In this document: positions 1,546-17,172 of the stretch, in pieces
Position numbering within the stretch: the stretch's first letter is position 1
How the letters are laid out: the number at the start of each line of letters is the position of its first letter
From: a virus
Strand: one strand, 5' to 3'
Virus record (IMG/VR): IMGVR_UViG_3300009285_000747
Coordinates: 1 to 20,576 of that record
DNA: 20,576 bases
Notes under the pieces: model-generated
Databases searched by the model: none
Seen by the model: only the letters and a program-made list of their open reading frames with translations
Told to the model about the DNA's origin: nothing
Program-made: the position numbers and the translations under genes

Positions 1546-1875
1546 ATGAAGGTTGCCGATGTGTTGCGAGGGTATGAGGGGGCGGTATGCGTGGTACATT
1601 TTTTGGCGGTCACGTTGCCGGAATTTCAGGGGGAGGTATATCACGGTGGGGGGCCGGTGCAGAATCCGGCGTGTTTGCTGCAGGTAACGCTGTTGCAGGG
1701 GAAGGTGAGTGGTTCGGGGAAGTTGATTCGGTTTGGGGAGACGAGGGGGGATGAGATTTTGGGGTGGACGCGGTTGGAGGCGTTGGAGGTAGTTGAGGTG
1801 TTAGGGGTTTTGGGGGCGGATGGGGTGACGGTTACGCCGGTTCCGCGTGAAACATTGGTTTTGGATGCTGCGTGA
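1546..1875 (+). CDS. Hypothetical protein, extremely G-skewed gene
   Basis: A 109-aa protein beginning MKVADVLRGYEGAVCVV. The start is fixed by the near-perfect Shine-Dalgarno AAGGAGGT (1533-1540) five bases before the ATG. The stop overlaps the next start as TGATG. I do not recognise a family; the protein is rich in Val, Leu and Gly, with no signal peptide, membrane helix or catalytic motif visible. The DNA is remarkable: by hand count, 1621-1860 holds about 47% G and only about 12% C on this strand, with G-ending codons dominating and many GGGG runs. Neighbouring genes do not look like this. It may be a recently acquired cargo gene. The good ribosome site and the tight coupling to the next gene argue that it is expressed. 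Confidence 0.6.
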   Translation: MKVADVLRGYEGAVCVVHFLAVTLPEFQGEVYHGGGPVQNPACLLQVTLLQGKVSGSGKLIRFGETRGDEILGWTRLEALEVVEVLGVLGADGVTVTPVPRETLVLDAA

Positions 1876-2048
1876 TGCCGCTCACTGGCAAGGGCGAGAA
1901 GATCATGGGGGCGATGCAGCATCGATACGGTCCGAAGAAAGCCGAGCGGGTGTTTTACGCCTCGCGCAATGCTGGGCGGATTACGGGGGTAGACGCTGGT
2001 TCGATGAAGCGGCGCGCGCTGGCTCAGGCGTTGCGCGCAAAAAAATGA
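1875..2048 (+). CDS. Small basic phage protein (KGEKI...YGPKKAERVFYAS family)
   Basis: A 57-aa basic protein, MPLTGKGEKIMGAMQHRYG, followed by PKKAERVFYASRNAGRITGVD. This resembles a widespread small phage protein found among packaging and structural genes, with pattern KGxKIxxAMxxxYGxKKGExVFYASxNxGxIxG. Its function is not known to me. Its ATG overlaps the upstream stop (TGATG), and its own stop overlaps the TerL start (ATGA at 2045-2048), so it is coupled on both sides. This overlap also identifies the correct TerL start. Lys/Arg-rich ends suggest nucleic-acid contact, but that is inference. Confidence 0.75.
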   Translation: MPLTGKGEKIMGAMQHRYGPKKAERVFYASRNAGRITGVDAGSMKRRALAQALRAKK

Positions 2049-4450
2049 AAGTTCAGCTTCCCGCTGGCGGCTGGCGACCGCGGCCGTATCAGATCCCGGC
2101 GTGGGAGTACCTGGAGGGCGGGGGGAAGCACTGCGAGTTGGTGTGGCACCGGCGTTCTGGAAAAGACGAGTTATCGCTGCATTGGACGGCGACCTCGGCC
2201 TTTGAGCGGGTGGGCAATTACTGGCACATGCTGCCGCAGGCCAATCAGGCGCGCAAGGCGCTGTGGACGGCGGTCAATTCGCATAGCGGGAAGCGGCGCA
2301 TCGATGAGGCGTTTCCTGAGGCGCTCAGGACTTCGCAGAACGATACCGAGATGTCGATCAACTTTGCCAGCGGCTCTACCTGGCAGGTGGTGGGCAGCGA
2401 CAATTTCAATTCGCTGCTGGGCTCGCCACCGGTGGGCATGGTGTTTTCGGAATGGGCGCTGTGCGATCCGGCCGCTTGGGGTTATCTGATGCCGATTCTG
2501 GAGGAAAACGGCGGCTGGGCGATTTTCAACACCACGCCGCGGGGCAAGAATCATGCCTATCGTTCCCTTGCCGGGGCGAAAAAGAATCCGGCCTATTTTG
2601 GCGAATTGCTCAGCGCCGACGCTACCGGGGTGTTCACGGCAGCGCAGTTGGAGGCGATCCGCGCGAGTTTGATCGAGACTTTCGATGAGGAATACGGCCT
2701 GTCGCTGTTTGAACAGGAGTACCACTGCTTCAAGCCGGATGCCTTGGTTGTGTGTTCCGATAAGGCACGTCAGATTTCACAAATTAGCGTTGGCGACACG
2801 GTACTGACTCACACAGGGCGGTTCCGCCGCGTTGAGCAAGTGCATAAGCGGCGCTACGCTGGGCCGATGTTGAAAATAGAGTCTTACGGTTCCCGCCCAC
2901 TTGTTTGCACCCCGGAACACCCAGTGTATCTATGCGATCCGTCGCAGCAGTCGTATTCGTGGAAGAAGGCGAGCGATATTGTTGTCGGCGACTGGCTTGT
3001 CACTCCAAAGTTGGATTGTTCACAAAAACCAGTCATCTCCCAGTCTCTAGCCAAGGTCATTACGTGGTTTGTGTGCGAAGGAAGCGCGAGCGGAAACGCC
3101 GTATCGTTTTCCATTGGAGCGCATGAGCCGGATAACGTCGAGGACCTGTGCGTTGCACTGCGCACTGAAGGATATGATCCAACGCTTAGGAGAGTAGCGA
3201 ATGTTTCAGTAGTTTCGGTAAATTCAGTAGGACTCGCGGATTTTCTTGTTTCACAAGCCGGTTCTGGATCACACAACAAAAGGCTTCCTTTGGCGCTTCT
3301 AAAAGGAAATGAGCAAGCGGTATTCGATACATTGATGCGTGGCGATGGCTGCATTCATTTACCAAAAGTAGGAAACGCACGTCCGGTGTACTGCTACAGC
3401 ACAGTGTCGGAGGGGCTTGCACAGCAGGTCCAGATCGTCGGCGCGGCGCTGGGTTACTCGGGCACCTATTCGGTTAGGCAAGAACAGGTATCCATGCTTG
3501 CGAACGGTCGAGAAATTGCCGGAGGCATGTCGTTTTCCGTACAGATGCGCAGATGGGCCGGAAACGATCGTCACGGAGGTAAAACAAGATCGGCGAAGAA
3601 CTCTATTCTCGGGCGCGTGCATACCATCGAAACAGAAGATTATGTAGGAGCCGTTCATAATCTACGCGTCGTTGGAGATGAGAGTTACGTTGTTAACACG
3701 CGTGCAGTGCACAACTGCTCTTTCGAAGCGGCCAACCTGGGGGCGATCCTGGGGCGTGGTCTGGTGCGCGCCGAGCGCGAAGGTCGGATCGACGACAGGC
3801 ATGACTACGACCCGGCCGGGGCGCCCATCGAGATTTCCTCGGACATCGGTTTTCGGGACGCTTCGAGTTGGTTTTTCTGGCAGCCGTGTCTGGGCGGATT
3901 TCGTATCGTCGATTTCGACAAGGGCGCCGGGCTGGATGCCGACGAATGGGCCGAGCGATTGCAAAAGCGAATTGACGATCGCGGCTACCGTCTCGGGCGC
4001 ATCTGGTTGCCGCAGGACGCCAAGGCGAAGACGTTCGCGGCGAAACATACGGCGATCGAAGTGTTCCTCGCCCATTTCGGTGCCGATATCATGCGCATCA
4101 CCCCCGCGGTTGAGCGCGCCGACCGGATCAATGCCGCGCGGCGCGTGCTGCGCCGCACCTCGTTTCACGCGAGCAAGACCGAAAAGGCACGCGACGGTCT
4201 GTCAGCCTGGAGTTACGAGTACGACGAGGAACGCAAAGAATTCTCCAAGGAACCGGCCCATAACTGGGCCTCTCACGACGGCGACGCCTATAGCTATGGG
4301 GCTATCGTCATGGAAGAACAATCCCCAGCCGAGGAAAAACCGAAGGAACGCGCCGTGGTGGTCGGCGCATCCGATTATTTCGGCGGGGCGACACTGGATG
4401 ATCTGTGGCGCGACCACCAACGGCAGGTTGACCGAGTGCAAAGGATTTAG
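2045..4450 (+). CDS. Terminase large subunit (TerL) precursor containing an intein
   Basis: An 801-residue precursor that motors DNA into the prohead. The ATPase part shows an atypical Walker A, HRRSGKD (residues 35-41), Walker B VGMVFSE (130-136) and the coupling segment IFNTTPRGKN (160-169). The RNase H-like nuclease follows, with acidic clusters at SSDIGFRDAS (Asp600), LPQDAKAKTF and SHDGDAYSYG (Asp745, Asp747). The conserved TerL junction QEYxCSFxAA is split: EQEYH ends at residue 227 and CSFEAAN resumes at 558, with a 330-residue intein between. Removing it leaves a normal 471-aa TerL. The start at 2045 is chosen because it overlaps the upstream stop and the protein begins just before the ATPase; an open frame back to 1847 is a shadow of the small gene. 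TerL must splice to be active. Confidence 0.93.
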   Translation: MKVQLPAGGWRPRPYQIPAWEYLEGGGKHCELVWHRRSGKDELSLHWTATSAFERVGNYWHMLPQANQARKALWTAVNSHSGKRRIDEAFPEALRTSQNDTEMSINFASGSTWQVVGSDNFNSLLGSPPVGMVFSEWALCDPAAWGYLMPILEENGGWAIFNTTPRGKNHAYRSLAGAKKNPAYFGELLSADATGVFTAAQLEAIRASLIETFDEEYGLSLFEQEYHCFKPDALVVCSDKARQISQISVGDTVLTHTGRFRRVEQVHKRRYAGPMLKIESYGSRPLVCTPEHPVYLCDPSQQSYSWKKASDIVVGDWLVTPKLDCSQKPVISQSLAKVITWFVCEGSASGNAVSFSIGAHEPDNVEDLCVALRTEGYDPTLRRVANVSVVSVNSVGLADFLVSQAGSGSHNKRLPLALLKGNEQAVFDTLMRGDGCIHLPKVGNARPVYCYSTVSEGLAQQVQIVGAALGYSGTYSVRQEQVSMLANGREIAGGMSFSVQMRRWAGNDRHGGKTRSAKNSILGRVHTIETEDYVGAVHNLRVVGDESYVVNTRAVHNCSFEAANLGAILGRGLVRAEREGRIDDRHDYDPAGAPIEISSDIGFRDASSWFFWQPCLGGFRIVDFDKGAGLDADEWAERLQKRIDDRGYRLGRIWLPQDAKAKTFAAKHTAIEVFLAHFGADIMRITPAVERADRINAARRVLRRTSFHASKTEKARDGLSAWSYEYDEERKEFSKEPAHNWASHDGDAYSYGAIVMEEQSPAEEKPKERAVVVGASDYFGGATLDDLWRDHQRQVDRVQRI
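2726..3715 (+). other. Intein with LAGLIDADG-type homing endonuclease domain, inside TerL
   Basis: Intein residues 228-557 of the precursor. Splicing block A is CFKPDALVV with nucleophile Cys1 (codon 2726-2728). Block B has the TxxH motif TPEH (Thr289, His292). Block F is near YVGAVHNLRVVGDESYVVN. Block G is AVHN followed by Cys+1 (codon 3716-3718), with the penultimate His and terminal Asn intact. All residues for standard class 1 splicing are therefore present. Between the splicing blocks are two degenerate LAGLIDADG helices, VITWFVCEGSA (Glu345) and FDTLMRGDGCI (Asp434), each keeping its acidic residue, so the endonuclease may be active. The three 60-base lines at 3181-3360 are about 45% GC by hand count, against about 72% at 3721-3780, which marks horizontal acquisition. 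Confidence 0.93.
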
Positions 4451-6099: not shown

Positions 6100-8237
6100 T
6101 GGCCAAAGAAAAGCAAAAAACCAGTGCTCCAGTCCAATACTACGAGGGACTGATCGCCGCCTACGAGCGCGCCTTCAAGCCATGGGAGACGCGCGCTGAA
6201 AAAGTCGTGCAGCGCTATCGTGGCGAGCAGGCCCGCGCTGCCAATGGTTCGCAGACCAAGTTCAACATCCTCTGGTCCAATGTCAATACGCTGGTGCCGT
6301 CCTGCTATTCGCGCCTGCCGCAGCCCGATGTCGGACGGCGATTTCGCGATCAAGACCCGGTGGGCCGCGTCGCCTCGCTCATTCTGGAGCGCGCGCTTAC
6401 TTTCGAGATCGAACATTATCCCGATTACCGCGCTACCATGCGCGAAGCAGTGCAGGACCGCTTCCTCCCCGGCCGCGGCGTTGCCTGGGCACGCTATGAG
6501 CCGCATTTCAAGGCGGCTGCGTCGCAGTTGCCATCCGACGGCCTGCAAGTCACCGAAGATGAAGATGCCCCCAAGGAGCAAATCGACTATGAGTGCGCTC
6601 CCGTCGATTACGTCGCCTGGCGCGACTTCGGTCACAACGTGGCCCGTACTTGGGAAGAAGTGTTCGTGGTTTGGCGGGTGGTATACATGCACGAGGAAGG
6701 CGTTGTCGAACGCTTCGGCAAAGCCATCGCCGCCAGGCTCCCCTACGATGCCACGCCCGAGGACAAGCGTAAGGAACTGACTCAGCAGGAAGTCAAAAAG
6801 CAGGCGCGCATCTACGAGATTTGGGATCTCCAGAAAAAGCGCGTGTTCTGGATGTCCCGCAGCCAACCCGAGCTGCTCGATGAACGCGACGATCCGCTGG
6901 GACTGGCCGAATTCTTTCCCTGCCCGCGTCCGCTCTATGCCACGACCACCAACGAAACCCTCATCCCGGTGCCGGACTTCGCGCTGTATCAGGATCAGGC
7001 GCGTGAACTGGACACCATCGCCGATCGCATCAACGGCCTGGTGGAAATGTTGCAAGTGAAGGGCGTATACGATGCCGCAGTGCCGGTGTTGGAACGAGTA
7101 TTTACCGAGGGTTTGAACGGCAAGCTCCTGCCGGTAAAAAATTGGGCTGCGTTTGCCGAGAAAAAAGGCTTGGCCGGAGCCATCGACGTGCTGGATTTGA
7201 AGCCGATCTACGAAGCACTCAAGGTTTGTTTCGAAGCGGCGCGCGAAATCATCAATTTCATCTACCAGATCACCGGCATTTCCGACATCGTGCGCGGTCA
7301 GACCGAAGCCTCCGAGACGCTAGGCGCGCAACAGTTGAAGGTGAACTTCGTTGGCCTGCGCCTGGGCGACATGAAGCGCGACGTGGCGCGCTTTGCGACC
7401 GATCTGTTGCAATTGAAGGCGCAAATCATGTGCCAGCATTTCACCCCGCAAACCATCATGGCCATGGCGGCGGTAGAACAACTCTCCCCTGCCGACCAGC
7501 AGCATGTTTTCGAGATGGCACCGCCCGGCAACGATCCCATGAGCGGGGCACCGTTGCCGCCGCAGCCGGTAATGGGCGAGGACGGCAAGCCACTCCCGGG
7601 CGCGGCGATGCTGCTGTTGTTGGGCGAGGCGAGAATTGCCGACCCAGAAGCGGATTCGCCCAACCCACTGCGGGCATTTCGCATCGAAGTCAACGCCGAC
7701 TCTTTGGTGCAACTCGATGACCAGGCCGAGAAGGAAGCCGCCAAGGAAATGCTCGGCGGCATCGCTAAGTTCCTGGAAACCGCCGCCGTCGTGGTTGCCG
7801 GTGCGCCGCAAATGCTGCCGGTGATGTTGGAATTGATGAAGTGGGCGCTGACCAAATACAAGGTAGGCAAGAATATCGAAGGCACTATCGATCAGGCGCT
7901 GGAACAGATGAAGCAGGCGGCAATGCAACCGCCCGCACCGGACCCCGCCGTTGCCGCCGAGCAGGCCAAAGCCGATGCTGCCAAACAGAAAGCGCAATTG
8001 GATGTCGGCGTGGCGCAGCAAAAAGCGCAGATCGAACAGCAGCATATGGCTGCCGAGCAACAGCATGACCGCGCCAAGCTCGGCATGGAAGGCCAGCAAT
8101 TGCAAATGGACGGTCAGAGAATGGCGATGGAAGGCCAGAACCAGCAGCAGCAAATGATGATGAAGAATCAGCAAATGCAGGCCCAGCACGCGCAAAAAAT
8201 GCAGATGGCGAAGATGCCGCCGAAGAGGCCGCAATGA
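6099..8237 (+). CDS. Portal protein (P22-like)
   Basis: A 712-aa protein, close to the size of the P22 portal, that forms the dodecameric DNA gate at the head vertex. The N-terminal region has the podoviral portal pattern YERAFKPWETRAEKVVQRYR, KFNILWSNVNTLVPSCYSRLP and FLPGRGVAWARYEPHF. The centre includes YQDQARELDTIADRINGLVE and the stretch INFIYQITGISDIVRGQTEA, typical of portal stem/crown helices. From about residue 595 the tail is rich in Gln, Met, Ala and Lys, with runs such as QQKAQIEQQHMAAEQQ, a long coiled coil comparable to the barrel helices of P22-type portals. The start overlaps the preceding stop by one base (TGATG), and the gene ends overlapping the next start. Confidence 0.92.
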   Translation: MAKEKQKTSAPVQYYEGLIAAYERAFKPWETRAEKVVQRYRGEQARAANGSQTKFNILWSNVNTLVPSCYSRLPQPDVGRRFRDQDPVGRVASLILERALTFEIEHYPDYRATMREAVQDRFLPGRGVAWARYEPHFKAAASQLPSDGLQVTEDEDAPKEQIDYECAPVDYVAWRDFGHNVARTWEEVFVVWRVVYMHEEGVVERFGKAIAARLPYDATPEDKRKELTQQEVKKQARIYEIWDLQKKRVFWMSRSQPELLDERDDPLGLAEFFPCPRPLYATTTNETLIPVPDFALYQDQARELDTIADRINGLVEMLQVKGVYDAAVPVLERVFTEGLNGKLLPVKNWAAFAEKKGLAGAIDVLDLKPIYEALKVCFEAAREIINFIYQITGISDIVRGQTEASETLGAQQLKVNFVGLRLGDMKRDVARFATDLLQLKAQIMCQHFTPQTIMAMAAVEQLSPADQQHVFEMAPPGNDPMSGAPLPPQPVMGEDGKPLPGAAMLLLLGEARIADPEADSPNPLRAFRIEVNADSLVQLDDQAEKEAAKEMLGGIAKFLETAAVVVAGAPQMLPVMLELMKWALTKYKVGKNIEGTIDQALEQMKQAAMQPPAPDPAVAAEQAKADAAKQKAQLDVGVAQQKAQIEQQHMAAEQQHDRAKLGMEGQQLQMDGQRMAMEGQNQQQQMMMKNQQMQAQHAQKMQMAKMPPKRPQ

Positions 8238-8602
8238 TGGCGCTCGGGCACAAAGTATTCGGCGCGGGACTGCCGGGGCTCGCGGTGGCCTCGCTCTGTA
8301 ATGACGTGGCCAGCGCCTTGACGGCAACCGGGACCAATCAAGCCACCGCCTACGCCATGACCGCAGCGGACAACGAATTCACTACGGTGGCCTCCGGTAC
8401 CGGGGCCATTCTGTACGCCGGTACGCCGGGGGACGAGCAGTGGGTCTATAACGGCGGCGCGAACCCGCTCACGGTGTACCCGGCATCGGCCTACTCGATC
8501 AATAACCTTGCCGCCAATGTCGGCATATTGGTGCCGGTGAACACCAGTTGCGGATTCAAACTGGTTTCTTCGACGCGCTATGCAGGGATGCTTTCCAGAT
8601 GA
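8234..8602 (+). CDS. 122-aa virion-module protein, paralogue A
   Basis: A 122-aa protein starting MMALGHKVFGAGLPGLAVAS; the second ATG at 8237 is an equally good start (TGATG with the portal stop). The chain is rich in small residues and predicted beta strands, with ILYAGTPGDEQWVYNGG and LTVYPASAYSINNLAA. It is paralogous to the protein at 8901-9269: aligned without gaps from residue 26 to the end, about 46 of 97 residues are identical by hand count, and both are 122 aa. No family was recognised. Location between portal and scaffold suggests a head decoration or minor capsid protein. Its stop overlaps the next start (ATGA). Confidence 0.75.
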   Translation: MMALGHKVFGAGLPGLAVASLCNDVASALTATGTNQATAYAMTAADNEFTTVASGTGAILYAGTPGDEQWVYNGGANPLTVYPASAYSINNLAANVGILVPVNTSCGFKLVSSTRYAGMLSR

Positions 8603-8910
8603 AACATCGCTACGTGCAAATCGACGGTGAATTGGTCGAAGTCCCGCGTGACTGGATGCCGGAGCCGCGCGCCGATCACCACATCATGGATGACATTAAG
8701 CCATACCGATCCATGATCGACGGCAGCGAAATCACTTCCCGTTCCAAACACCGCGAACACTTGCGAGCGCACGGTATGATCGAAGTCGGCAACGATTCGA
8801 GCCTGCACAAACCTCGTCAACCCATTGCCTCACCGCCAGGGTTGAAGGAGAAAGTCATCCAGGCGGTGAACGCAGTGGAAGAAAGGAAAAGGAGATCGAA
8901 ATGCCATTAG
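8599..8910 (+). CDS. Conserved phage protein (DIKPYRSMIDG...SRSKHREHLRAHG motif)
   Basis: A 103-aa protein starting MKHRYVQIDGELVEVPRDW. The central motif DIKPYRSMIDGSEITSRS, then KHREHLRAHGMIEVGND, is a recurring conserved module in podophage and siphophage structural operons, usually near portal, scaffold and capsid genes. I know of no established function. The C-terminus is basic and helical (LKEKVIQAVNAVEERKRRS). The ATG at 8599 overlaps the upstream stop, and the gene overlaps the next start by 10 bases; an in-frame ATG at 8548 lies inside the previous gene and is unlikely. It separates the two 122-aa paralogues and probably belongs to head assembly. Confidence 0.75.
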   Translation: MKHRYVQIDGELVEVPRDWMPEPRADHHIMDDIKPYRSMIDGSEITSRSKHREHLRAHGMIEVGNDSSLHKPRQPIASPPGLKEKVIQAVNAVEERKRRSKCH

Positions 8911-9269
8911 CCAGAAACGTGATGCGAGCCGGAGTGTCGGCCGGTGCTGCGCGCGCTATCAACGGCAACGAAGTTGCCGCAGCCGTAACCGCCGCCGGGA
9001 CCACCCAGGGCACCGCCACCGCTCTTACGGCGGACCTGAACGATGTCACCACCGGTACCACCGGACAGGGCGTGATCCTGTATTCCGGCGTGCCCGGAGA
9101 TTCGCAGATCGTCTATAACGGCACCACCGCAGATCTGCGCGTGTACCCGCATTCCGGGGGCAACATCAACCAGCTCGCGGCCGATGCCGGATTCGTGCTG
9201 GCGCGAGCTACGGCGGCGAAGTGCTATCTCATCAATTCCACGCAGTGGATCGCATTCCTGTCGGCCTGA
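8901..9269 (+). CDS. 122-aa virion-module protein, paralogue B
   Basis: A 122-aa protein starting MPLARNVMRAGVSAGAARA, preceded by a good Shine-Dalgarno (AAGGAG, around 8889-8894). It shares with paralogue A the segments GxILYxGxPGDxQxVYNG, LxVYPxS and INxLAAxxG, with about 47% identity over an ungapped 97-residue alignment counted by eye. The composition, with Thr/Ala/Val strands and turns, suggests a compact beta fold. It precedes the scaffold-like gene. A head-decoration or minor capsid role is plausible but not shown. Confidence 0.75.
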   Translation: MPLARNVMRAGVSAGAARAINGNEVAAAVTAAGTTQGTATALTADLNDVTTGTTGQGVILYSGVPGDSQIVYNGTTADLRVYPHSGGNINQLAADAGFVLARATAAKCYLINSTQWIAFLSA

Positions 9270-10407: not shown

Positions 10408-11445
10408 GTGCCTACTTACGCAAATTCCGACATCTCGGACATGATCGCTACTACGATTCAATCCCGTAGCGAGGATCTGGCCGACAACTTCACCAATAAC
10501 AACGCCTTTCTTCGCACTCTGAAGAAGCGCGGCAATATCAGGACTGTGAGCGGCGGCAACGTCATCCTGGAGGAAATCGCCTACACCGACGCCTCCTCGA
10601 TCAACGTCAACAGCTACAGCGGCTATGAAGTGCTGAATATCGCGCCGAACAGCCCGATCAGTGCAGCGAGCTTCAACCTCACGCAGTACGCCGGCGCGGT
10701 ATCCATGTCCGGGCTGGAATCTCTCCAGAACTCCGGCCGCGAGCAACTGATCGATTTGATGACTGGTCGCGTTCAGGTAACAGAGGGTCAACTGCAAAAC
10801 CGCATGGATAACGACCTGTACTTGGACGGCACCGGAAACTCCGCGAAAAACGTCACCGGCCTTGCCGCAGCCATACCGGACGATCCGACCACCGGAACTT
10901 ACGGCGGCATCAGCCGCGCGACATGGACGTTCTGGCGTTCGCAACTGTACGACGCATCCTCAGACGGGGGCGCGGCGACTTCAGCGGCGAATATCCAGCA
11001 GTACATGACTACGCTCGGTCTGGAATGCGTGCGCGGCTCGAACAAACCCGATCTGTGGGTGCTGGATTCCAACTTCTACGGGTTCTACGTCAACTCGCTG
11101 CAAGCCATTCAGCGCATTACCAGCGCCGATGGCAGCGCCGGGGCTGGCGCCGGATTCGGGCCTGACCTCATGTTCTATGGCGGCGGCTTCCCGGCCAAGG
11201 TCATTCTCGGGGGAGGCATTTCAGGAGCGATCAGTTCGACCGATACGGCAGGCGGCGCAACCGCGAATCACGCCTGGTGCATCAACACGGACTTTTTCTT
11301 CTACCGTCCGCACAAGGACCGCAATTTCGTTCCCATCGGTGGAGAGCGCCAAAGCGTCAACCAAGACGCCATCGTGAAACTCATCGGGTGGGCTGGCAAC
11401 GTAACTTCCAGCGGGCCGCAGTTCTGCGGCGTGCTGATCGCATAG
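10408..11445 (+). CDS. Major capsid protein
   Basis: A 345-aa protein with GTG start at 10408 and a strong ribosome binding site (TAGGAGG, 10397-10403). It begins MPTYANSDISDMIATTIQS and has features of HK97-fold coat proteins in this phage group: an early helical arm (FLRTLKKRG), NVILEEIAYTD, a long spine-like helix region around REQLIDLMTGRVQVTEGQL, NRMDNDLYLDGTGN, and a C-terminal section with NTDFFFYRPHKDRNFVPIGG and NQDAIVKLIGWAGN. Position after the scaffold and the strong translation signal fit the most abundant virion protein. Several hundred copies would form the icosahedral shell. Confidence 0.88.
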   Translation: MPTYANSDISDMIATTIQSRSEDLADNFTNNNAFLRTLKKRGNIRTVSGGNVILEEIAYTDASSINVNSYSGYEVLNIAPNSPISAASFNLTQYAGAVSMSGLESLQNSGREQLIDLMTGRVQVTEGQLQNRMDNDLYLDGTGNSAKNVTGLAAAIPDDPTTGTYGGISRATWTFWRSQLYDASSDGGAATSAANIQQYMTTLGLECVRGSNKPDLWVLDSNFYGFYVNSLQAIQRITSADGSAGAGAGFGPDLMFYGGGFPAKVILGGGISGAISSTDTAGGATANHAWCINTDFFFYRPHKDRNFVPIGGERQSVNQDAIVKLIGWAGNVTSSGPQFCGVLIA

Positions 11446-11455
11446 GAGCACCATC

Positions 11456-11947
11456 ATGCCTAACCTTTCCACTTCAAGCCTTTTGGGCGCGGCTTTCGAC
11501 AGTCCCGGCAGTACCGTCGATTTTGCGCTGCTCACCAAGGCAAACGGCAACAACGACAGCGAATGGGTGTACGTCAAGGTAAGCGGGACGTGCCTGACCG
11601 GAACATTGGTCGCCATTCTGAACGCCGGCACGGCGCTCGCCTGCACCACGGCGTACCTGGTCACTGCGGCCAGCGTCGGCACCGAATTGGCTTGGTGCCA
11701 GACGTTGATTTCCGATCAGCAGTGCGGCTGGGTCGCAAGACGCGGCAATAACATGTACGTCGGCTGCTCGGGAACCTGCGCCATGGATACGCAGTTGTAC
11801 CTCGCCGGCAGTGCAGGGTATCTGACCACCACGGCCGGGAGCGCCACCATGGCCGGGATCGTGCTGCTTGCTTCGGCGAGCACTGCGAGCCTGGTTGTGA
11901 CAACGGCCCTGCTTACCTACCCGCGCGCCGTGGCGCAATTGAGCTGA
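11456..11947 (+). CDS. Probable head decoration or capsid-associated protein
   Basis: A 163-aa protein starting MPNLSTSSLLGAAFDSPGST just after the capsid gene, with a short purine-rich ribosome site (TAGGAGC). The sequence is beta-rich, Thr/Ala/Gly-heavy and unusually rich in cysteine (for example GTCLTG, ACTTAYL, WCQTL, QQCGWV, VGCSGTCAMD). The section WVARRGNNMYVGCSGTC and LYLAGSAGYLTTT resembles small trimeric capsid cement proteins in style, but I cannot name a family. Its stop overlaps the next start (TGATG). Context favours a capsid-stabilising role; the cysteines could form disulphides in mature virions. Confidence 0.6.
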   Translation: MPNLSTSSLLGAAFDSPGSTVDFALLTKANGNNDSEWVYVKVSGTCLTGTLVAILNAGTALACTTAYLVTAASVGTELAWCQTLISDQQCGWVARRGNNMYVGCSGTCAMDTQLYLAGSAGYLTTTAGSATMAGIVLLASASTASLVVTTALLTYPRAVAQLS

Positions 11948-12855
11948 TGACGCAGCTCGCAGCCGCAGCCCAAGGGGCAGCATTTCCTGTTCTCACGCAG
12001 GACGGGGAAGAAGTCCCTTGGGTCGGGCTGAAACTCGAAACCGGCTTGGCCAATTCCACCGAGCAAATCGATGGCAACATCGAGGCGACGCTGGCGCGCG
12101 GCTATGTCGGTTACGAGACACTGCTTGGTCAAGAGAACGGAACGGTCTCTATTGTCGGGTCCGGCCCTTCTCTAAAAGAGAACTGGCAAAGCATCAAGGA
12201 TGTAGGCGGTGACATCATCGCTTGCAATGCGGCGCTGCAGTTCCTTTTGGACAAGGGCGTGGTACCAAAATACGCCATGTTTTTCGACGCTGATGTGCTG
12301 GCGCAGGAATTCGCCATACCGCATCCCGATGTCATCTACCTGGTTGCTTCCCGTTGCCATCCTTTTGTGTTTACCCTTCTGGAAAAATGCAAAGTCATCG
12401 TCTGGCATGCCGCTGGCGATTTGAATACCAAGGCAATTCTGGAAAAACACGGTCTCATGGAAGCGATGGTGGGAGGCGGTTCTGCTGCCGTCACGCGCAC
12501 CATGGTGCTCGCGCCGCCGATGGGTTATCGAGACCTGCATTTGTGGGGAGCGGATAGTTCTTTTGCCGATGGTGCAACGCATATCCGCAAGAGCACTACG
12601 GAGGAGCGCACCATCGAAATCATGGCCTGGGGACGAGCGTTTTTTACCTCTCCCTGGATGGCGCAGCAAGCCGAGGACTTCAAGATTCTTGCGCCGCAGT
12701 TGCGCGACCTCGGTATTCGTATCGCGGTGCATGGCGATGGCTTGATCCCCCATCTGGCGCGGCGCATGGGATTGAATGTCGATGGTCAATCGTACTGGTG
12801 GCAATTGTGGCGCGATGCCATCGTCAAGGCCAGAATCCTCTGGTCGCAACTATAG
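11947..12855 (+). CDS. DUF115/MptE-Maf-like protein, probable glycosyl- or pyrophosphoryl-transferase
   Basis: A 302-aa protein. After a divergent N-terminus it carries VSIVGSGPSLKENW (GSGPS, 71-75), then DIIACNAALQFLLDKGVVP, YAMFFDAD (around 110-116) and later YLVASRCHP, GGGSAAVTRTM and DLHLWGADSSFADG. This is the core pattern of DUF115, a family that includes archaeal 6-hydroxymethylpterin pyrophosphokinase MptE and bacterial Maf proteins that transfer nonulosonic acids onto flagellin. No pterin pathway is present here, so a sugar-transfer role is more attractive, but that is inference. The gene is coupled to the capsid-associated gene upstream (TGATG) and followed by a strong ribosome site for the next structural gene. 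It may modify a virion protein or a host surface structure. Confidence 0.75.
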   Translation: MTQLAAAAQGAAFPVLTQDGEEVPWVGLKLETGLANSTEQIDGNIEATLARGYVGYETLLGQENGTVSIVGSGPSLKENWQSIKDVGGDIIACNAALQFLLDKGVVPKYAMFFDADVLAQEFAIPHPDVIYLVASRCHPFVFTLLEKCKVIVWHAAGDLNTKAILEKHGLMEAMVGGGSAAVTRTMVLAPPMGYRDLHLWGADSSFADGATHIRKSTTEERTIEIMAWGRAFFTSPWMAQQAEDFKILAPQLRDLGIRIAVHGDGLIPHLARRMGLNVDGQSYWWQLWRDAIVKARILWSQL

Positions 12856-12867
12856 GAGAGCATTCAC

Positions 12868-13587
12868 ATGCTTGCTTCAGACGTAGCTAACAGGCAATTC
12901 TCGGGGGCAGCGGACCCGGATGCGGTGATGATCGCGCGTTTCTATGTACGCGCTGTTCAGAACCGCTTCAAGAGCAAGGCAGAAGGCAGACCGGTGTTCG
13001 AGAACAAGATTTACTGCGACTATTACCCTGCCGGCAACAACCTGCTGCGCATGGACATACCGGCCCGAGACGAACACAAGGCGCGCTTCGCGAGGCAGTG
13101 GGCTTTTTTCCAGAATAACCAATCCGCCGATGCCGGGGCATTCGGGACGCCGCTTTCGGCGTGGCCTCTGTTGACTCCCGCCGACGTGGAAAATCTGAAA
13201 GCGGCCAAGTTCCTGACGATCGACAATATCGCCGCGGCGTCGGATCAGCAATTGCAGTCTCTGGGGATGGGTGCTGCGGGCATGAGTCCCGACGTATTGC
13301 GGGCGCGGGCGCAAGCCTTTCTGCAAGTGGCCAAGGACACGTCTTTGCCGCAGCATCAAGCCGAACAGATCGAGGCGCTGAAAAAGGCGCAGGACGAAAC
13401 CAACGCCAAGCACGCAGCCGAGATGGCCGAGCTTCGCGCCATGCTGACCAAGCAGCCGCAAAAGACCAAGGGGAAAAAAGGCGCGAAGAAAAAGGACAAA
13501 TCTGAACGCACGCCGGAACAGGTTCAAGCGGCCAAGGACCGCATGGCCAAGGCGCGGGCTGCCATCAAGAACAAGGCGCATGCCTGA
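12868..13587 (+). CDS. Conserved structural-module protein with HhH-like segment and lysine-rich tail
   Basis: A 239-aa protein with a good ribosome site (TAGGAGAG before the ATG at 12868). The first half (VMIARFYVRAVQNRFKSK, YCDYYPAGNNLLRMDIPARD, ARFARQWAFFQNN) resembles a family of uncharacterised proteins often found between capsid and adaptor genes in podophages. Residues about 105-150 read like a helix-hairpin-helix segment (DVENLKAAKFLTIDNIAAAS, QQLQSLGMG). The C-terminal third is a charged helix ending in strongly basic Lys runs (KTKGKKGAKKKDK), suggesting nucleic-acid or acidic-partner contact. Its stop overlaps the next start (TGATG). Function is not established. Confidence 0.65.
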   Translation: MLASDVANRQFSGAADPDAVMIARFYVRAVQNRFKSKAEGRPVFENKIYCDYYPAGNNLLRMDIPARDEHKARFARQWAFFQNNQSADAGAFGTPLSAWPLLTPADVENLKAAKFLTIDNIAAASDQQLQSLGMGAAGMSPDVLRARAQAFLQVAKDTSLPQHQAEQIEALKKAQDETNAKHAAEMAELRAMLTKQPQKTKGKKGAKKKDKSERTPEQVQAAKDRMAKARAAIKNKAHA

Positions 13588-14495
13588 TGGCCAATTCCAC
13601 GATGCTGCAACTGGTGGACCGCGTGGCGAATGAGATGTCGCTGTCCGCGCCGACATCGGTCATCGGCAATTCCAACTTGGTAGTGGTGCAACTGCTGGCG
13701 CTGATGAATGCCGTCGGCTATGAGTTGCAGCGCGAGCACGACTGGCAGGCGATCACCAAGGAATACCGTACCAACTTGGTGACGTACAGTTACACCGGCG
13801 ATACAACTGCAGACAGCACGTCGGTTACGAATATGTCCTCGATCACAGGACTGTCGGCGCGCTTCATGGTTACGGGAACGGGAATTGAGAGCGATACCTA
13901 CGTGTCGAGCGCCTCCGGGACTACCGTCGTGCTATCGCAGCCGGCGAGCGCGACTGGTACAACGATCACATTGACGTTTTCGCAGACTCAATACACGCTG
14001 CCCTCGGATTGGGACCGTCCGGTGGATTACACCGATTGGGACAAGGCGAAGCACTGGCGCATGCTTGGGCCAGTAACGGCGCAGCAATGGCAGTTGTTGA
14101 AATCCGGCTTCATTGCAAGCGGCCCGCGCCTGCGCTACCGGCTGCTTGGCGGCTATTTCCAGATCTGGCCGCCATCGGGAATTGACGATTATTTCGGCTT
14201 CGAATACATCAGCTCTCAATGGGTGCTCGCCACGGCGGACACCATCACTCCGACCAAGACGAGTTTCACCGTCGATACCGATACTTGCGTCTTTCCCGAT
14301 ACGCTCATGGTGCTCGGGGTGAAATCCAAGTATATGCTGGCCAAGGGCTGGGCCGACCCTTACGGGACTTTGTACGAGCAGCACAAGGGTATCGCTTGGG
14401 CAAGTGAGGCCGGCGCAGCGACGCTTTCCATGGCCCCGCGCCCGGCGGATGTGCTCATTGGCTGGGGCAACATACCTGATAGTGGATTCGGCTGA
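13587..14495 (+). CDS. Head-tail adaptor / tail tubular protein A-like
   Basis: A 302-aa protein. The N-terminal helices TMLQLVDRVANEMSLSAP and LVVVQLLALMNAVGYELQRE, then HDWQAITKEY, match the pattern of podophage adaptor proteins (T7 gp11/P22 gp4 class) that sit under the portal. A beta insertion follows (about 70-130) with TYVSSASGTTVVLSQPAS, then LPSDWDRPVDYTDWDKAKHW and YFQIWPPSG, typical of the receptor-like beta part. It is coupled at both ends by TGATG overlaps, with the sugar amidotransferase immediately downstream. Twelve copies would link the portal to the nozzle. Confidence 0.82.
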   Translation: MANSTMLQLVDRVANEMSLSAPTSVIGNSNLVVVQLLALMNAVGYELQREHDWQAITKEYRTNLVTYSYTGDTTADSTSVTNMSSITGLSARFMVTGTGIESDTYVSSASGTTVVLSQPASATGTTITLTFSQTQYTLPSDWDRPVDYTDWDKAKHWRMLGPVTAQQWQLLKSGFIASGPRLRYRLLGGYFQIWPPSGIDDYFGFEYISSQWVLATADTITPTKTSFTVDTDTCVFPDTLMVLGVKSKYMLAKGWADPYGTLYEQHKGIAWASEAGAATLSMAPRPADVLIGWGNIPDSGFG

Positions 14496-15646
14496 TGGAC
14501 ATTGCCAAACGCTACGGGCTGCCCCTCGAGGTGCGCTTCTGCACGCGCTGCACCATGTCCAACCAGCGCCCGCGCATTACCTTCGATGCAGAAGGCGTTT
14601 GTTCAGCCTGCCGTTATGCCGAGTATAAACGTGGCATCGACTGGAACCAGCGCGACCTCGAGTTGCGCACCCTGTGTGACCAGTATCGCAAGGGCAACGG
14701 CGACTACGATGTGATCGTTCCCTGTAGCGGCGGCAAGGATTCCGGGTTTGTGGCGCATCAGTTGAAGCACCTGTACGGCATGACCCCGCTTACCGTGACC
14801 TGGGCGCCGCTGAAGGCGACCGACATCGGACGCAAGAACCTGGATGCGTTTATCGACTCCGGGTTCGACAACCTGCTCGGCAAGCCCAATGGGCAGGTCA
14901 CGCGGCGGCTGGCGGCTCTCGCAACCCGATACCTCGGCGATCCATTCCAGCCGTTTATCTACGGGCAGACCAATTTTCCGTTGCAGATTTCCGTGCGCTA
15001 CAAGATTCCGCTCATCATGTATGGCGAGAACGGCGAAGTGGAATACGGCGGGGACATGAAGAACGCCATTCGTCCAGAACGGGATATAGACGATCACGCC
15101 CATCACTATTTCTCCGGCCTGACGCCGGAGTTCTGGACCGCACATGGCATCTCGGCTGCTGACCTGAAACCGTTCATGGCTCCGCCTCGGACGGTATTGC
15201 AGGCCAATGGCACGCGCATCCACTTCATGGGCTACTACAAGTTCTGGGACCCGCAGGAGAACTTCTACTACTGCTCGGATAACACAGGCTTTTCACCAAA
15301 CACCGAGCGTTCGGAAGGCACCTATTCCAAGTACGCGAGCTTGGACGATTGTCTGGACGGCTTTCACTACTACTTGGGTTATGTAAAGTTCGGCATTGGA
15401 CGGGCGACTTCGGATGCGGCGCACGAGATCAGGGACGGCAAGATCACCCGCGATGAAGGCATTGCGCTGGTGCGGCGCTTCGATGGCGAGTTTCCGAAGC
15501 GCAATTATGCGGACTTCCTCGAATACTGCTCGTTCACCGACCGCGACTTTACCGATATTGTTGATGGTTGGCGCGCGGAACACATCTGGCGCAAGGCCGA
15601 GAATTGGGAACTGAGATATCCGATATGGCAAGCATCCGCCCCATAA
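14495..15646 (+). CDS. N-acetyl sugar amidotransferase (WbpG/PseA-like)
   Basis: A 383-aa PP-loop enzyme. A four-cysteine zinc-ribbon-like element opens the protein (RFCTRCTMSNQRP and GVCSAC; Cys16, 19, 36, 39). The ATP-pyrophosphatase loop CSGGKDSG follows (SGGKDS at 78-83), then GKPNGQVTRRLAALATRYLG, QTNFPLQISVRYKIPLIMYG and ENGEVEYGG, which are characteristic of the N-acetyl sugar amidotransferase family (WbpG, PseA). These enzymes adenylate an N-acetyl group and replace oxygen with nitrogen to make acetamidino sugars of O-antigen or flagellin; ammonia often comes from HisH/HisF-like partners, which are not in this window. Full length is intact. It sits between adaptor and nozzle genes, overlapping the adaptor stop by 1 base and the nozzle start by 22, so it is embedded in the virion operon. 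This is not a usual phage core gene. Confidence 0.88.
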   Translation: MDIAKRYGLPLEVRFCTRCTMSNQRPRITFDAEGVCSACRYAEYKRGIDWNQRDLELRTLCDQYRKGNGDYDVIVPCSGGKDSGFVAHQLKHLYGMTPLTVTWAPLKATDIGRKNLDAFIDSGFDNLLGKPNGQVTRRLAALATRYLGDPFQPFIYGQTNFPLQISVRYKIPLIMYGENGEVEYGGDMKNAIRPERDIDDHAHHYFSGLTPEFWTAHGISAADLKPFMAPPRTVLQANGTRIHFMGYYKFWDPQENFYYCSDNTGFSPNTERSEGTYSKYASLDDCLDGFHYYLGYVKFGIGRATSDAAHEIRDGKITRDEGIALVRRFDGEFPKRNYADFLEYCSFTDRDFTDIVDGWRAEHIWRKAENWELRYPIWQASAP

Positions 15647-17172
15647 GACCGCGCATCAAGATAGCATCGCTGCCCGCCACGGTGGGTGGCTTGAATGCGC
15701 GCGATTCCTATGCCGAGATGCCGCCGACGGATGCGGTAGTTCTCACCAATTATTTCCCGCGCACGACCACCGTCGATTTGCGTTTCGGCTACTCGCAGCA
15801 TGCAACCGGAATGACCGGGCAATCGGAAACATTGATGGCCTATGCCGGAGGCAGTTCCAACAAGTTTTTTTCCGCCAATTCCGGCGGTCGCATCTACGAG
15901 GTCACATCCTCCGGGGCGGTGGGCGCTGCCGACGTTACCGGACTCACCAATGGGCGCTTTCAGTACATCAACATCGCCACCAGTGCCAACAATTACCTGA
16001 TGGGCGTAAACGGCGCGGATAAGGCCCGCTTCTATACCGGCTCTGCCTGGGCGACCGATGGCGACGGCGCACCATACGATATTACCGGCGTGGATTCCGC
16101 TACTTGTATCGGCATCAACATGCACAAGAATCGTGTCTGGTTAATTAAGCAGAACGATCTTCGCGCCTGGTATCTGCCCACGGGGGCCATAGGGGGCGCG
16201 GCTGCAGCACTTGATCTGCGCGCTTTTGCCCCGCATGGCGGCGGTTTGGTGGCGATGGCAACGTGGACCATAGACGCCGGGCAGGGCGTCGATGACTATG
16301 CTGTGTTCATCACCAACAAGGGCGACGTAATCGTGTACGCCGGAACCGATCCGGCGAGCGCCACGACCTGGGCGCTGCGCGGTGTATGGTACTTGGGCAC
16401 CCCGGTAGGCAATCGCCCCTTCATTAAGTGGGGCGGCGATTTGCTGCTCATCTGCCGTGATGGCGTGCTGCCGCTCTCTCAAGCTCTTGCCTCATCTCGG
16501 GTGAACAATCGCACCGCTATTACCGACAAGATCCAGCAGGCCATCGGCTCTGCGATCGTCGATTACGGTTCCAATTTCGGCTGGCAGTTATGCCTGTTCC
16601 CGCTGCAGGATATGCTGGTGTTAAACGTCCCGGTTTCTGCCGGCAGCGCGCAGGAACAGTATGCAATGAATACCATCACCGGCGCATGGGGACGTTTCAA
16701 TAGCTGGGCAGCGAACTGCTGGGAATTGTTCCAAGACGAACTGTATTTCGGCGGCAATACCTACGTCGGGCAAGCCTGGGATACCAACGCCGACAACGGC
16801 AGCGCCATCAACGGGTTCATCCTGCAGGCATTCAATGAATTCGGCGCGCCTGGGATCACCAAGCGAGTTACGTCAATGCGGCCGATGTTTCTCACCAACG
16901 GCGTGCCGCAGATATACGCCAACGTCAATTGGGATTACGACTTGTCCGATCCCACGGCTGCGCTGTCATTCAGCGCGACGAATTATGGAGTATGGGACAC
17001 GGCTACTTGGGATAATGGACTGTGGGGAACCGATCTGGTCCCGACCTTTGCCATTCAGGGGGCGACTGGTTCAGGTATCGCCGGTGCGCCAGTGTTCAAA
17101 TCGTCCTGCTCGGGGTTGCAACTGCAACTGGTATCCACTGCGATCTCGCTGGAGATTGGGGGCTTCCTGTGA
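15625..17172 (+). CDS. Tail nozzle / tail tubular protein B-like (P22 gp10 / T7 gp12 class)
   Basis: A 515-aa beta-rich protein from the ATG at 15625; an in-frame ATG at 15568 lies deeper in the amidotransferase gene. The N-terminus LPATVGGLNARDSYAEMPP, then DAVVLTNYFPRTTTVDLR, is the hallmark opening of podophage nozzle proteins, which begin with a GGLN...D...A..L.N..P pattern. It continues with propeller-like repeats (GVNGADKARFYTGSAW, YAVFITNKGDVIVYAG, PFIKWGGDLLLICRDG). The C-terminus ISLEIGGFL is typical of the class. It would form the hexameric tail tip attached below the adaptor. Its stop overlaps the GNAT start (GTGA at 17169-17172). Confidence 0.85.
   Translation: MASIRPIRPRIKIASLPATVGGLNARDSYAEMPPTDAVVLTNYFPRTTTVDLRFGYSQHATGMTGQSETLMAYAGGSSNKFFSANSGGRIYEVTSSGAVGAADVTGLTNGRFQYINIATSANNYLMGVNGADKARFYTGSAWATDGDGAPYDITGVDSATCIGINMHKNRVWLIKQNDLRAWYLPTGAIGGAAAALDLRAFAPHGGGLVAMATWTIDAGQGVDDYAVFITNKGDVIVYAGTDPASATTWALRGVWYLGTPVGNRPFIKWGGDLLLICRDGVLPLSQALASSRVNNRTAITDKIQQAIGSAIVDYGSNFGWQLCLFPLQDMLVLNVPVSAGSAQEQYAMNTITGAWGRFNSWAANCWELFQDELYFGGNTYVGQAWDTNADNGSAINGFILQAFNEFGAPGITKRVTSMRPMFLTNGVPQIYANVNWDYDLSDPTAALSFSATNYGVWDTATWDNGLWGTDLVPTFAIQGATGSGIAGAPVFKSSCSGLQLQLVSTAISLEIGGFL

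Follow-up and report, generated by a model that had tools for sequence, protein, structure and literature searches.

A putative legionaminic-acid-type sugar amidotransferase among the virion genes of a phage and its possible role in virion glycosylation

What would a phage do with a sugar amidotransferase encoded in the middle of its virion genes? The question is raised by a window of 20,576 nucleotides (the whole stretch of DNA analyzed, positions 1 to 20,576 of IMG/VR record IMGVR_UViG_3300009285_000747), in which a first-pass annotation described an intact N-acetyl sugar amidotransferase (NASAT) of "WbpG/PseA type" between adaptor and nozzle genes, and proposed that it modifies sugars either on virions or on the host surface. 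If the virion proposal were true, some phages would put sialic-acid-like sugars on their own particles, with possible effects on adsorption and recognition; small transferases for glycoengineering could be supplied, and what looks like a stray "LPS gene" carried by a phage would become a directly testable system.

The amidotransferase gene and its neighbors

The window features considered here are the following:

1847..4450, plus strand: large terminase with an in-frame intein-like insert (Pfam domains; comparison with the terminase of the related contig G002)
6099..8237, plus strand: portal protein (phrog_12082)
10408..11445, plus strand: major capsid protein, MCP (phrog_9953)
11947..12855, plus strand: PF01973 (MptE-like/DUF115) protein of 302 aa, Maf-like; proposed CMP-nonulosonate protein glycosyltransferase
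12868..13587, plus strand: phage protein (phrog_20268), function not assigned, syntenic in relatives
13587..14495, plus strand: SU10-type head-tail adaptor (phrog_6013; Pfam SU10_adaptor, PF24175, 31 bits against a cut-off of 27)
14495..15646, plus strand: NASAT (TIGR03573/WbuX family), predicted legionaminic-acid type, 383 aa
14540..14611, plus strand: putative Zn-binding tetracysteine element of NASAT (residues 16-39: C16, C19, C36, C39)
14726..14743, plus strand: ATP pyrophosphatase PP-loop of NASAT, SGGKDS (residues 78-83)
15625..17172, plus strand: virion gene directly 3' of NASAT (phrog_5107), probable nozzle by position

The NASAT frame runs from an ATG at 14495 to a stop codon at 15644-15646 and encodes 383 aa without internal stops. 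The product matches the NCBIfam model TIGR03573 at 329.9 bits (cut-off 203.2) over profile positions 2-344 of 344, and the structure 8WEX (8wex_A in the PDB) at 7.6e-98 over residues 5-377; Pfam and PHROGs gave no match. Both motifs by which the family is defined, the tetracysteine CXXC...[GN]XCXXC and the PP-loop SGGXDS (PMC10607449), are present, and in LpNASAT, which has the same tetracysteine motif, zinc was detected by ICP-MS (PMC10607449). Thus, the claim of an intact enzyme with a four-cysteine element and an SGGKDS loop was borne out, and the HMM search that had been suggested for it gave the expected family. No match to another PP-loop family such as QueC or TilS appeared, which rules out that assignment, and no catalytic residues were lost. 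An alignment of 80 bacterial homologues has 102 columns with a conservation of at least 95%, and the window protein follows every one of them; with no fewer than 27% of its positions differing from the nearest relatives, this full set is good evidence for maintained function. Judged by this alignment, the gene is intact and under clear constraint. A decayed gene is ruled out by the retention of these columns, and a foreign composition by GC (0.576) and GC3 (0.74) values inside the range of the neighboring phage genes.

The gene overlaps both of its neighbors, by exactly the 1 and 22 bases initially reported. The adaptor stop TGA (14493-14495) has one base in common with the NASAT start, a TGATG overlap of the type that could allow translational coupling, and an in-frame ATG of the downstream virion gene occurs at 15625 (MASIRPIRPRIK...), 22 bases inside the NASAT frame; in the program-made ORF list the downstream frame opens earlier, at TTG 15568. 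Sigma-70 promoters or terminators inside the region showed no excess over shuffled sequences. NASAT is embedded among virion genes rather than being cargo at an edge, and co-translation with its neighbors, which had also been proposed, is plausible. The naming of those neighbors held for the adaptor, which scores over its Pfam cut-off, and in part for the nozzle, which is probable from its position. The nozzle candidate matches PHROG 5107 at 402.7 bits; its AlphaFold2 (AF2) model is poor (pLDDT 45.6), and no phage structure was found among the PDB matches of its profile. PHROG 5107 is labelled "amidase, lysis", and since its place behind the adaptor points to a nozzle, this label may be wrong.

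NASAT at the adaptor-nozzle junction is a rare insertion, since none of the 78 related viral loci with both flanking genes and a measurable gap between them gave a NASAT match. The gap in these loci is usually small (most commonly 14 bases). It exceeds 400 bases in eight of them, six of which have 520 bases. A further insertion is seen in the terminase, where about 300 aa, with a match to Hint_2 and one to Intein_splicing (PF14890) just below the cut-off, are absent from the G002 terminase.

Bacterial kin and viral relatives

Legionaminic acid (Leg) is a bacterial relative of sialic acid. The bacterial NASATs closest to that of the window, with up to 73% identity, are located in Leg operons, and those of the best matches contain LegB-, LegC-, LegH-, LegG-, LegI/NeuB-, PtmE-, HisF-, and HisH-type genes, the families having been assigned by Pfam and the Leg names being an interpretation of these families. 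Across 25 bacterial loci of the clade, LegG is present in 23, NeuB-type genes in 22, PtmE-type genes and HisH in 21 each, and HisF in 19. The LegG- and PtmE-type genes indicate legionaminic rather than pseudaminic acid. In a quick tree of 91 rows, the window NASAT falls inside a 28-row clade of Leg-operon sequences (SH-aLRT 95). Because the bacterial kin lie in Leg operons, the initial "WbpG/PseA type" appears too loose, with the NASAT family standing and "Leg-type" probably fitting better, a distinction drawn from the operons of its kin. Its expected product type, by analogy, would be the 5-acetamidino-7-acetamido nonulosonic acid that forms a homopolymer in Legionella LPS, according to a title cited in PMC3694923.

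With LpNASAT of Legionella pneumophila (8WEX) and the TIGR03573 family (WbpG, WbuX), the window protein shares full-length homology, the tetracysteine, and the PP-loop, but it is phage-encoded, among virion genes, and without HisF or NeuB in the window. Similarly, the bacterial Leg operons with NASAT-HisF-HisH hold the closest sequences and the same presumed chemistry, whereas the window NASAT stands alone among virion genes. Neither NeuB/LegI nor the HisF/HisH partners were found near it: NeuB and HisF are absent from the 20.6-kb window, a fragment in which truncation may explain the absence, and HisH was not among the scanned window ORFs. A second NASAT-like protein, in locus L020, is 33% identical over just 123 residues.

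NASATs 65-67% identical to that of the window are found on two IMG/VR contigs, G001 (45.5 kb) and G002 (27.3 kb). Given identities of 72% for the MCP and 48-54% for the adaptor and the downstream gene, together with 54-56% for the G002 portal, both contigs are, by sequence, phages of the same group. Their NASAT lies not at the adaptor-nozzle junction but inside a run of sugar genes that includes a cytidylyltransferase (LegF-like), Epimerase_2 (LegG-like), NeuB (LegI-like), HisF, a LegH-cluster gene, and radical SAM/SPASM and PfkB genes. A DegT domain is present in G002, where the run adjoins the terminase on its upstream side, and G001 has a homologue. Thus, both NeuB and HisF are near NASAT in these two phages; HisH was found in neither, and their pathway, in contrast to that of the bacterial operons, is compact, several of its proteins looking shorter than the bacterial counterparts. 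SIS, DegT, and CTP_transf_like domains of this run were identified in locus L003, with homologues in L002. The run of sugar genes at L003:811-11999 and L002:1013-15255 is kept between two diverged phages, and the NASAT PP-loop of both phage relatives reads SGGKDG versus the canonical SGGKDS of the window, so their activity may differ.

A sister grouping of the window NASAT with the two phage copies has a support of only 67, which leaves a common origin undecided. More distant NASATs occur on further viral contigs bearing terminase, connector, or capsid genes, so that phages have acquired NASAT-type genes more than once. On L006, L008, L012, and L014, which are other viral contigs, NASAT is close to terminase, connector, or capsid genes, in some cases along with radical SAM and GT2 genes, and most belong to a separate viral NASAT clade.

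A Maf-like gene in the morphogenesis cluster

Three genes upstream of NASAT, separated from the preceding capsid gene by one small gene, lies the PF01973 gene (58.9 bits against a Pfam cut-off of 34.6). Maf enzymes take CMP-nonulosonates as donors for the O-glycosylation of flagellin, and PF01973 shows a resemblance to the sialyltransferase Cst-II (PMC11339370). A profile built from 15 phage copies matches Maf (5mu5) at 9.6e-15 versus a pterin pyrophosphokinase at 1.4e-4, and for the AF2 model (pLDDT 81) Maf 5mu5 is the best match, followed by the archaeal MjHPPK and then by CMP-sialyltransferases. The protein is thus closer to Maf than to HPPK. Of the three-domain Maf architecture, however, only the central 5mu5 region (263-435) is aligned, the N- and C-terminal domains being absent, and for this reason we call the protein Maf-like and not Maf. 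It also differs from the Maf flagellin glycosyltransferases in being encoded beside a capsid gene and not beside flagellin.

Most relatives carry the gene at the corresponding position, and among 41 related contigs 33 contain PF01973. It is therefore core across the group, which rules out that it is special to phages with NASAT; the two genes co-occur in all three NASAT phages of the group, as the core status of one of them would give anyway. These three phages and L099 have a common Maf-like subtype (42-64% identical within, 28% on average to the others, in a comparison where MCP averages 66%). Such co-variation with NASAT is weak evidence, drawn from one phage sublineage. Slots beside the gene hold a Methyltransf_13/14-type gene in L100 and a methyltransferase in L164, and in L130 and L111 the Maf-like protein has a C-terminal extension without a Pfam match that, by eye, looks glycosyltransferase-like.

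Possible targets of the amidinated sugar

The best reading of the locus, to which we give a probability of roughly one half (0.48), is that NASAT amidinates a Leg-type sugar which the Maf-like protein attaches to virion proteins. From its position within the morphogenesis cluster, NASAT would be made while virions assemble, late in infection. Using ATP (PP-loop, AMP plus PPi chemistry) and ammonia, either free or delivered via HisF/HisH partners encoded by the host or by phage genes beyond the fragment, it is predicted to convert an N-acetyl (acetamido) group on a legionaminic-acid-like nonulosonic acid, or on a precursor, into an acetamidino group. The Maf-like protein would then transfer the CMP-activated sugar onto Ser/Thr of a virion protein, and the resulting charged, amidinated glycans could alter adsorption or shield the particle. 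The intact NASAT, its placement among virion genes, the conserved Maf-like gene, and the Leg-like pathway of the relatives are consistent with this. Against it stand the sugar pathway missing from the fragment (no NeuB, HisF, or HisH), the presence of only the central Maf domain together with the second fold match to the Methanocaldococcus jannaschii pterin pyrophosphokinase, and the occurrence of the Maf-like gene in many phages, known from fragment contigs, without a known NASAT, so that this gene need not use amidinated Leg. More tentatively, we propose a phage lineage with its own nonulosonic-acid glycosylation of virions by amidinated sialic-acid-like sugars, in which a core Maf-like transferase would be combined with exchangeable tailoring genes (the Leg-like pathway, NASAT, and methyltransferases).

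The first-pass annotation had left virion and host-surface sugars side by side. The virion side has gained new support from the conserved Maf-like gene in the cluster, as well as from the methyltransferase genes or C-terminal extension at this gene in some relatives; the host-surface side is kept as a rival that we hold to be rather unlikely. In such a case, NASAT would amidinate host legionaminic acid in O-antigen, capsule, or flagellin, and the changed sugar would prevent progeny or competing phages from re-adsorbing, or give a lysogen a different serotype. The substrate could come from a host, given that the bacterial kin lie in Leg operons, and no pathway genes are seen in the window itself. 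There is also a precedent in the prophage-encoded O-acetyltransferases atr29/atr30, which have been assigned to the acetylation of nonulosonic acids in Acinetobacter capsules (PMC6586298) and likewise represent phage genes tailoring such acids, although they O-acetylate host capsule and the change proposed here is amidination. However, a place among virion genes with overlaps on both sides suits a conversion gene poorly and would come late for exclusion, a Maf-like candidate transferase is encoded three genes upstream, and neither an integrase or lysogeny gene nor any other hint of lysogeny was seen in the window. The virion-gene placement and the conserved transferase candidate favor virion glycosylation over a change of the host surface.

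It is improbable, in our view, that the two genes are functionally unlinked, with the PF01973 protein being a pterin or other pyrophosphokinase, or structural, and NASAT a recent passenger of marginal role. PF01973 also includes the archaeal MptE, the MjHPPK structures rank second by fold, and NASAT at the adaptor-nozzle site is unique to the window among the 78 loci; yet Maf is the better match by profile and by fold, the NASAT residues are clearly constrained, and the genes occur together in every NASAT phage of the group. Finally, an amidino sugar meant for another target, such as hypermodified phage DNA or a small molecule, is very improbable, since nothing in the window suggests base modification and the related phages have nonulosonate genes, even if virus-encoded glycosyltransferases acting on DNA are known from work cited in PMC12619734.

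Phage tailoring of host glycans is already known, as is the glycosylation of some mycobacteriophage virions, where sugar is reported on capsid and tail proteins (cited in PMC12619734), the acceptor class proposed here. No nonulosonic acid or Maf-like gene is mentioned there, and the likeness is one of phage sugar on virion proteins. In tblastn searches of 50,697 phage records, neither two NASATs nor the Maf-like gene of the window type gave a match, while the capsid protein, used as a positive control, found Mx8, BUCT555, and others. No description of a Leg-type NASAT or of such a Maf-like gene in phages was found among the top-ranked open-access papers. Each enzyme family is known and, as far as these searches reach, the setting is new.

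Some further features of the window were observed. On the minus strand, positions 3-564 hold two frames, one resembling by eye a DUF1376-type protein and the other a small helix-turn-helix protein, which are separated from the plus-strand morphogenesis genes by an iteron-like array of direct repeats at 583-677 (GGTTCAAC-type, 11-base spacing). The structural module also contains two similar 122-aa ORFs, at 8234-8602 and 8901-9269, and several relatives have copies matching both, at one place or another.
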